This document shows positions 13,613 through 16,734 of a stretch of DNA of 64,000 nt, piece by piece (within the stretch, counting starts at the first letter, position 1; each line of letters starts with the position of its first letter). The notes under the pieces were generated by a model. It saw nothing but the letters and a program-made list of their open reading frames with translations. It did no database searches and had not been told where the DNA came from. The DNA is taken from positions 1,612,001 through 1,676,000 of the forward strand of contig NZ_CP113915.1 in the NCBI RefSeq assembly GCF_029395435.1, read 5' to 3'. This stretch comes from Bifidobacterium sp. ESL0790 (GTDB lineage: Bacteria > Actinomycetota > Actinomycetes > Actinomycetales > Bifidobacteriaceae). The translations under genes and the position numbers were made by a program.

Positions 13613-15289
<1,677 letters not shown>

Positions 15290-15392
15290 TCCCTATCCCC
15301 ATATCCGCTCCCCAAATCGGTCGCCCTGCTGCCGCTCAGTTAGTTACCGCTAGTATGAAGCGCTTTATCCGGCCTGATGGGTTGCCCTTGAC

Positions 15393-15486
15393 GTGGTGGG
15401 GGTGGAAATATACGATGTCCGACACGCTCCGGGCCGCTCTGGCCAAGTCTTTACGGTCTGACATCGCATATTTCCACCCCCACCAC
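15393..15486. repeat. Palindromic element A (covarying pair with element B)
   Basis: Perfect 19-bp arms GTGGTGGGGGTGGAAATAT (15393-15411) and its complement (15468-15486) extend inward through CGATGTC/GACATCG with single mismatches. The central segment is CGCTCCGGGCCGCTCTGGCC followed by AAGTCTTTACGG. The same centre recurs, inverted, in element B 64 bases away. Confidence 0.85.
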
Positions 15487-15550
15487 TCAACGTATAAGTG
15501 TTAAAGACCTAGCCAATCCCAACTCACTGCCAGAGTCGATTCCGTTAAGT

Positions 15551-15636
15551 TGGTGGTCTGGGATATGCGATGTTCGACCGTATGACTTGGCCGAGCGGCC
15601 CGGAGCGTGTCGAATATCGTATATCCCAGACCACCA
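15551..15636. repeat. Palindromic element B (inverted relative to element A)
   Basis: Perfect 16-bp arms TGGTGGTCTGGGATAT (15551-15566) and complement (15621-15636). Read on the minus strand it shares the central core of element A (GACACGCTCCGGGCCGCT, GGCCAAGTC, TACGGTC). The outer stem sequence differs, with both strands changed so that pairing is kept. Confidence 0.85.
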
Positions 15637-15780
15637 GCGCCAGTTCTAAGGTCACCGTCATAAGCAAGCGACTGCTTGGTAGGCCTGGGGGAAAATAAGC
15701 GGATATAAAAAATGGAGGAAAAAGTTGGGCGGATTGGATAGACTCTCATAAGCGTTAATTCGATAGGAATGAGGAATGAC

Positions 15781-16734
15781 ATGGCGGAAGTCAAGGCGGG
15801 CGACGCGGCACAGCAGGCAGTGAAAGCGCTCGAGTTGAAGCCCGGGCAGCAGCAGGGCGACCGCACCGTCTTCCATGATGCCACCAACCTCTACTACCCC
15901 ACCGAGCGCATCTACGGCGGCCAGATGACCGCGCAGGCCATCATCGCCGCCTCCGACACCACCGACGCCGACAAGGTGCCGAACTCCATCCACGCCACGT
16001 TCATCAAGGTGGGCAAGCTCGACGAGGAGACCCGCTACGAGGTGGAATCGCTGCGTGACGGCCGTTCGTTCTCCACCCGCCGCGTGGACGCCAGGCAAGG
16101 CGACCAGCTGCTCTTCACCGCCACGGTGAGCATGCAGAAGGCGGGCCAGGCTGGCGTGGAGTTCAACGATGACATGCCGCAAAACCTCCCCGATCCCGAG
16201 ACACTCACCAGCGCCAAGGACCTGATGGAGCCTTACGCCGACCAGTCCGGGTTCGCCAAATACTATTCGTCGCAGTCGCCCTTCGACATCCGCCACATCG
16301 GCTCGACCGTCATGCTCGAGCCCGACAAGAAGAGCGCCGACAAGGATTCCGGCAAGCAGATGGTGTGGATGCGCATGGCCAGCCCGATCGAGGCGCCGCA
16401 GAACGTGCACCGCGCGCTGCTGGCGCTGGAGTGCGACCAGGTGATGATGGAGCCGGACCTGCGCCGCGCGGGCCTGAGCATCTCGACGCCCGGCATCTTC
16501 TACGCCTCGATCGACCACTCGATGTGGTGGTACGACAACATCGACATGAACGAATGGCACCTCTACGTGCAGGACGCCCCGGTGGCCGGGCATGGCAGGG
16601 CTCTGGGCATCGCCAAGGTCTACTCGGCGGACGGCAGGCTGCTGGCCGCGATGACGCAGGAAGCCACGATTCGCGTGCCGGAAAAGAAGGATGACAAGAA
16701 CGGCAAGAAGGACGACAAGAAAACCGAGAAGTAA
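15781..16734 (+). CDS. tesB: Acyl-CoA thioesterase II (TesB family)
   Basis: A 317-aa double hot-dog thioesterase that hydrolyses acyl-CoA to free fatty acid and CoA. The N-terminal hot-dog contains the family pattern YPTERIYGGQMTAQA and RRVDARQG. The C-terminal hot-dog contains SIDHSMWW (the Asp of the TesB catalytic triad region) and WHLYVQDAPVAGHGRALG, where the family shows W-x-LY-x-(2)-SP-x(5)-RG. A lysine-rich tail of about 20 residues ends the protein. The start ATG at 15781 is preceded by GAGGA at five to six bases; the ATG at 15769 has worse spacing. It is slightly longer than E. coli TesB (286 aa). Monocistronic, followed by a strong terminator. Confidence 0.92.
   Translation: MAEVKAGDAAQQAVKALELKPGQQQGDRTVFHDATNLYYPTERIYGGQMTAQAIIAASDTTDADKVPNSIHATFIKVGKLDEETRYEVESLRDGRSFSTRRVDARQGDQLLFTATVSMQKAGQAGVEFNDDMPQNLPDPETLTSAKDLMEPYADQSGFAKYYSSQSPFDIRHIGSTVMLEPDKKSADKDSGKQMVWMRMASPIEAPQNVHRALLALECDQVMMEPDLRRAGLSISTPGIFYASIDHSMWWYDNIDMNEWHLYVQDAPVAGHGRALGIAKVYSADGRLLAAMTQEATIRVPEKKDDKNGKKDDKKTEK

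Follow-up and report, generated by a model that had tools for sequence, protein, structure and literature searches.

The two inverted hairpins, A and B, that separate the genes called ettA and tesB in the window (the whole stretch of 64,000 nucleotides of Bifidobacterium sp. ESL0790 that was analysed; contig NZ_CP113915.1, positions 1,612,001–1,676,000) together make up one composite unit, A being its left half and B its right half, and this unit is a single copy of a repeated palindromic element. In the explanation that we consider probable, this unit belongs to a family of non-autonomous miniature palindromic elements. Its building block would be a hairpin of ~85–140 nt, in which an invariant apical core is carried by a long outer stem whose sequence changes freely. 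Two inverted hairpins make up the bifidobacterial unit, which measures ~230–260 bp and lies between genes, and in Candidatus Saccharibacteria single hairpins stand just downstream of genes or inside them as in-frame inserts. The core would probably be recognised by a trans-acting factor, perhaps as a single-stranded hairpin.

Hairpin A spans positions 15393–15486, its core reads on the minus strand, and it matches the covariance model with an E-value of 2.4e-20. Its arms (15393–15423 and 15456–15486) are 94% complementary, and its core at 15421–15458 (GACCGTAAAGACTTGGCCAGAGCGGCCCGGAGCGTGTC on the minus strand) is near-identical in the Bifidobacterium and Saccharibacteria copies of alignment A3. 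Hairpin B spans positions 15551–15636, with its core on the plus strand (E-value of 3.3e-23), arms at 15551–15578 and 15609–15636 that are 93% complementary, and a core at 15576–15611 (GACCGTATGACTTGGCCGAGCGGCCCGGAGCGTGTC) located by pattern and model searches. The outer stems of A and B are variable and unrelated, each matching itself alone, and the core is common to both. The 64-nt spacer between the hairpins (15487–15550) begins with TCAACG (15487–15492) and ends near CCGTTAAG (15542–15549), and these inner flanks recur in other pairs. Beyond the variable stems, the left outer end TTGAC (15388–15392, the boundary being approximate; CTGAC in other copies) and the right outer end GCGCCAGTT (15637–15645; CGTCAGTT in other copies) are also found in other copies and species, so that the composite can be written as TTGACG[A]CTCAACG ... 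CCGTTAAG[B]CGCCAG. The unit is flanked by open reading frames on the plus strand for a putative ABC-F protein (13613–15289; named ettA in the sequence-only reading) and a putative acyl-CoA thioesterase-like protein (15769–16734; named tesB there). The latter served as the synteny anchor and has matches in 100 of the 112 genomes of the genus at E ≤ 1e-30. The sequence-only reading had reported two inverted hairpins 64 nt apart with a common core and differing outer stems, and the coordinates agree with that report. It had taken them for two copies of an element; both hairpins are real, but they are two halves of one composite.

Folding energies were computed in the B orientation, in which the core is read as GACCGTA...GGAGCGTGTC (the minus strand for A and the plus strand for B). 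They were -66.6 kcal/mol for A (z = -10.1) and -62.6 kcal/mol for B (z = -10.6), and 0/200 shuffles folded as well as either hairpin. The opposite strands fold more weakly (-59.3 for A and -51.2 for B), because a G.U pair becomes an A.C mismatch when the complementary strand is folded. Such structures could be those of a regulatory RNA, a 3′-end stabiliser or a terminator under selection for RNA folding, with the copies being domesticated gene-end hairpins, an explanation that we regard as unlikely. The better-folding strands of the two hairpins of the pair are opposite DNA strands, and neither A nor B has a T-tailed terminator: a GC stem-loop followed by a run of T was not found anywhere at 15250–15800, which lends no support to a ready-made terminator as the barrier between the two genes that had been suggested. 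In an Rfam scan no family was matched beyond chance, the only hits being two miRNA models far under the gathering score.

A covariance model, R1, was built from ten copies of the element in the same genome. In these ten copies, aligned by sequence, 96.1% of the cells were paired and 20 of 39 pairs had two-sided changes. The covariation was 0.504 compared with 0.162 in shuffles, none of which reached the observed value (0/500), and this strong signal speaks for the RNA explanation. R1 gave 45 matches in the genome, 21 of which were the same places on the other strand, leaving 24 places. Together with one more hairpin at 1568082–1568255, the pattern, BLAST-type and model searches identified 25 hairpins. 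Sixteen of the 25 make eight pairs, one of which is A and B, and in all eight (8/8) the left hairpin is on the minus strand and the right one on the plus strand in the B orientation. Among 150 places listed for the genus, 17 sets of neighbours are less than 600 nt apart, and 16 of these 17 have the same arrangement. Some Bifidobacterium pairs have the same outer ends, AACTGACG...CGTCAGTT, and the same inner ends, CTCAACGG...CCGTTGAG, and pairs of other species have the ends AGTTCCAGCG...CGCTGGAACT instead. R1 matches at E ≤ 0.01 were present in 71 of 112 genus genomes (the match counts cover both strands), and the bare core with up to two mismatches in 74 of 112. Other copies, the lack of which would have spoken against the first interpretation of the hairpins, are therefore plentiful. 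In the additional hairpin at 1568082–1568255 the apical loop holds an insert, ~80–110 nt of another repeat (L020:1501–1660), and the spacer of locus L130 contains letters related to this repeat in inverted form.

The bifidobacterial copies are located between genes. Many copies of the element lie ~11–35 nt past gene ends, and 10 of 24 hairpins of the own genome are situated between mechanically called converging ORFs, both of which speak for gene-end RNA structures. None of the 24 is in a convincing gene; an ORF of 129 codons spans one of them. Titled or fetched 8-kb loci contain 67 bifidobacterial copies. Nine of these are spanned by an ORF, and most such ORFs are evidently spurious in DNA this rich in GC. 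The ORF of locus L178 (2713–5404, reverse strand of the B-oriented locus) provides the only convincing case, among bifidobacteria, of a copy inside a gene; here, the element is possibly inserted in frame in the linker of an ABC transporter, and this may be a real gene copy. At locus L111 (G090 C1:1713000–1716500), three hairpins flank an apparent tRNA-dihydrouridine synthase gene, as judged from its sequence, which shows that one gene can also have hairpins on both sides. The collection gathered with the copy pattern comprised 194 distinct accepted copies, 154 of them bifidobacterial, after copies near locus ends and four chance loci had been dropped.

The core of ~38 nt is common to Bifidobacterium and Candidatus Saccharibacteria. 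A scan of genome contigs with the core pattern returned at least 119 stretches. Among the matches listed, 80 rows were titled: 51 from Bifidobacterium/Bifidobacteriaceae, 25 from Candidatus Saccharibacteria and 4 from other taxa, with none from rickettsiae. The four others lack the hairpin and look like chance matches. A second model of the core, R2, was derived from alignment A3, which contains 14 Saccharibacterial and 8 Bifidobacterium copies. It matched all 21 Saccharibacterial genomes that were reached through the scan loci (3–22 matches each), 57 of 392 genomes sampled from the Saccharibacterial class and 5 of 379 sampled from the phylum, three of the five being already known carriers. 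Only one of 394 genomes sampled from the class of the window was matched, namely the own genome, and the other 393, which served as a negative control, had no match. These counts indicate that chance does not account for the shared core, whose taxonomic spread is very uneven. The core pattern had no match in viral contigs, and window positions 15380–15650 had none in plasmid and phage collections, so carriage by a phage or plasmid was rejected.

In Saccharibacteria, 93 matches yielded 92 distinct copies after one duplicate was dropped. An ORF was mechanically taken to contain a copy when it was open for at least 60 nt past the stem on both sides, and by this definition 36 of the 92 copies are in frame inside long ORFs, among them those for GatA, TsaD, IleRS and a glycosyltransferase. 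The first three were named by PDB searches, and the other gene names come from a reading of the translations. Two further copies are located at ORF ends (L310 and L320). The remaining ones are intergenic, mostly within ~130 nt of the ends of flanking ORFs. Relative to the mRNA, 19 of the 36 gene copies are in the A and 17 in the B orientation, which speaks against a structured RNA. No frame- or gene-breaking copy was present among the Saccharibacterial gene copies read, and none of the four inspected copies that overlap but do not span an ORF breaks the gene (0/4). The reading frames are used unevenly (A0 9, A2 8, B1 16 and B2 1; three of the 92 copies, which had no anchor, were left out of this tally).

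The insert peptide, exemplified by ACPSDTLRAALAKSSCSAEH and CSAEHKDLARAARSVSEGHA, would be made as part of the protein. When compared with solved homologues, the insert corresponds to a gap at 123→156 in TsaD and 219→250 in IleRS, and in GatA, where the alignment is loose, to a gap within ~230–268. In a model of the glycosyltransferase (mean pLDDT of 77, four sequences) that is confident elsewhere, residues 193–222, which are the insert, have pLDDT values below 50. The in-gene insert of ~32–40 codons is probably translated as a disordered surface loop. The alternative, that intron-like splicing before translation or ribosome bypassing during it removes the element, would fit the conserved cores and paired arms of shared sites in essential genes, but we regard it as very improbable, as the frame is kept in all gene copies read, the frames are used unevenly, and the inserts lie at short loops of solved homologues, the one that was modelled being predicted to be disordered. 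IleRS of L296:1–2760:- contains a second insert relative to solved structures, at residues ~717–784, which is unlike this element.

The ends of the element were compared among Saccharibacterial copies. Fourteen copies from several genomes have the same ends, AATGTCATTAACTTAAGCAT...ATGCTTAAGTTAATGACATT, which implies that whole stems were copied together with the core. No target-site duplication was obvious by eye in these 14 copies. A search for these ends in 697,690 bases of Saccharibacterium G118 yielded ten units in which the core is enclosed by such terminal repeats, one unit whose core is a variant and one palindrome that has no core, and no transposase-like gene was found between ends in the odd-end stretches that were read there for an autonomous partner. 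Palindromes with the outer ends of the Saccharibacterial element and no core were noted in G118 at L473:9560–9600 and L454:5680–5740. The earlier proposal of a mobile palindromic element fits these several same-end copies in one Saccharibacterium, as well as the 25 hairpins of the own genome, the occurrence in 71 of 112 genus genomes and the presence or absence of the unit at the same site in close relatives.

That site was compared at 16 loci with the ettA–tesB interval. The pair is present in five of them (G000, G087, G088, G089 and G092), a single hairpin in G086 and a decayed-looking hairpin in G025. Nine loci have no element, with synteny shown for part of these nine. The spacer at 15487–15550 can be partly aligned with those of G088, G092 and G087 and with the inverted one of G089. 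The whole pair of G089 is inverted: it aligns better in the reverse sense both with G000 (119 vs 85) and with G088 (144 vs 97.5). Intergenic regions that lack the element align too loosely for an exact empty site to be obtained. Four of the element-free species (G082, G085, G090 and G091) have an ordinary-looking hairpin after ettA, as would be anticipated if the copies were domesticated gene-end hairpins. We infer that copies move, with one genome per species having been compared.

Sites shared between species were also identified inside Saccharibacterial genes. The glycosyltransferase gene was found in 31 of 34 genomes searched. In the 30 loci that were read, its loop contains the element in five, a different palindromic insert in two and a stem without the core in one (G112), and many of the 30 have a short loop only. 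At four shared sites (glycosyltransferase, IleRS, MurJ-like and aminotransferase-like), the arms are 55–75% identical between species, and pair comparisons of the arms gave 35 double changes, 18 single changes and 2 of other types. This tally covers four of seven orthologous site groups, with three of five glycosyltransferase copies and two of three aminotransferase-like copies, and leans towards similar pairs because stems that could not be gaplessly aligned by eye were left out. The core faces the opposite way with respect to the gene at two of the seven shared sites: at the aminotransferase-like site in L297 compared with L329 and L343, and at the TsaD site in L313 compared with L338 and L360.

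These sites bear on the question of whether core and stem form one element. The core could instead be a module that is inserted in the loops of hairpins already present, with the outer stems being unrelated older hairpins. The stems are unlike at nearly every site, palindromes with the same ends can lack the core (L473 and L454), as does the glycosyltransferase stem of G112, and apical loops in bifidobacteria can hold further inserts, all in keeping with such a module. However, the arms at shared gene sites are homologous between species and have kept changing together, and the repeated Saccharibacterial copies include the whole stem and the ends. This arrangement is accordingly rather improbable, and a palindromic element comprising both core and stem is the preferred reading.

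The sequence-only reading held that changes on both arms imply selection for structure. This conclusion is unsafe, since template switching yields the same pattern and two-arm changes are therefore weaker as proof of selection. Template switching between the arms of inverted repeats has been described to homogenise the arms and invert the spacer (PMC8604942). According to another proposal, it can generate hairpins and maintain them with no need for selection on every step (PMC8794818). Both signatures, two-arm changes and inverted cores or pairs at shared sites, are present here, and the complementarity of the arms would be kept largely by template switching between them during replication. 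In gene copies, mismatches on the mRNA strand are 30 A.C and 12 G.U (split by orientation, Fisher p = 0.011, an optimistic value as the copies are related and the counts small). This excess of A.C is the reverse of what would be predicted from selection for mRNA folding. It argues against mRNA folding as the process that keeps the arms paired, and selection on mRNA structure as the sole cause of pairing is disfavored for these copies. In bifidobacterial outer stems, wobbles favor the B strand (G.T 39 vs A.C 13, p = 0.0004), as selection on an RNA would predict, and the corresponding counts in Saccharibacterial intergenic stems (34 vs 23) do not differ significantly. In bifidobacteria, DNA or RNA may thus be under a strand-specific constraint, and the one-strand bias of non-coding copies indicates that neutral arm-copying alone is not a sufficient explanation.

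Among known systems, the inverted doublets with a short spacer resemble REPINs (PMC3116915), and a REPIN/BIME-type element could be moved as single-stranded DNA by a RAYT (TnpA_REP) transposase. The strand bias of the hairpins and the intergenic location of the bifidobacterial doublets agree with this possibility, for which a REP-type transposase had been proposed as the enzyme to look for. However, the RAYT domain PF01797 (Y1_Tnp) has no match in the own genome, which has 25 hairpins, and is present in only 7 of 112 genus genomes, so a RAYT was rejected as the mobiliser in the own genome. The hairpins are also longer (86–94 bp) than REPs, which are described as 20–40 bp (PMC3733652), their conserved part is apical and the stem varies, and the Saccharibacterial copies are single and often inside genes. 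Taken together, a REPIN-type origin is highly unlikely. The element shares with MITEs (ERIC, RUP and Correia/NEMIS) its small size, non-autonomous nature and long stem-loop, and terminal inverted repeats recur in some Bifidobacterium pairs and in the one Saccharibacterial subfamily with repeated ends. It differs from them in that most copies have dissimilar outer stems and in that no autonomous partner was found in the G118 stretches read; target-site duplications were not obvious by eye in 14 copies. Long inverted repeats inside protein-coding genes have been described in mitochondria of Nematomorpha (PMC6649704), but their arms encode conserved protein, whereas the present insert is an addition with a shared core.

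The closest analogue, compared by description, appears to be the Rickettsia palindromic element (RPE), and this is a likeness rather than membership. RPEs and the related Wolbachia elements are described as palindromes of ~100–150 bp that lie in intergenic DNA or, with the frame kept, in conserved genes; orthologous genes have their inserts at one and the same position, and these are exposed to solvent (PMC2229807, PMC3767692 and PMC10969869). Saccharibacterial copies are likewise palindromic, occur within and between genes (36 in ORFs and two at ORF ends) and leave the gene in frame and unbroken. They differ in that other phyla are involved, with one core in Actinomycetota and Saccharibacteria, and in that an intergenic inverted-pair form exists in addition to the intragenic single form. 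Palindromic selfish elements are a known kind, and in the open literature, as far as the accessible parts of it go, in-frame palindromic selfish DNA in conserved genes is presented as something peculiar to Rickettsia and Wolbachia. In open-licence PMC, which covers few of the subscription papers, no published account of an element of this kind was found for either bifidobacteria or Saccharibacteria. New features are the single core in two phyla, one of which has it as intergenic pairs and the other in protein-coding copies, and the continued change of stems that nonetheless stay paired.

Saccharibacteria are obligate epibionts of Actinomycetota. It is possible, rather than probable, that Saccharibacteria and bifidobacteria exchange a single living family of palindromic selfish DNA, spread by a recombination activity that reads the core as single-stranded DNA, and that after insertion, even in essential genes, template switching rewrites the stem and inverts the core. 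If so, Rickettsiales would not be alone in having a system of coding palindromes, and the element would record, at the molecular level, that an epibiont group and a group of possible hosts have exchanged DNA. A comparable Saccharibacterial system with the bifidobacterial core would demonstrate that coding palindromes are not specific to Rickettsia and Wolbachia, and the shared core would serve to trace DNA passing between Actinomycetota and the phylum of the epibionts. The homologous in-gene inserts with co-changing arms and inverted cores would offer a natural test bed for selection on RNA structure against template switching, which matters for all covariation-based claims of RNA structure, because both processes create 'compensatory' changes. 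Palindromes with other cores were observed in Saccharibacterial genes as well. A variant subfamily with the core GGGCGAGCGCCC has three copies (L360:2348–2402, L320:642–696 and L355:3552–3606), two of which are inside TsaD- and Tgt-like genes. The glycosyltransferase loops of L412 (G758) and L420 (G816) hold in-frame palindromes with yet another core (GGTCGCTCCGGCCCGTC...-like), which suggests that several families of coding palindromes exist in Saccharibacteria.
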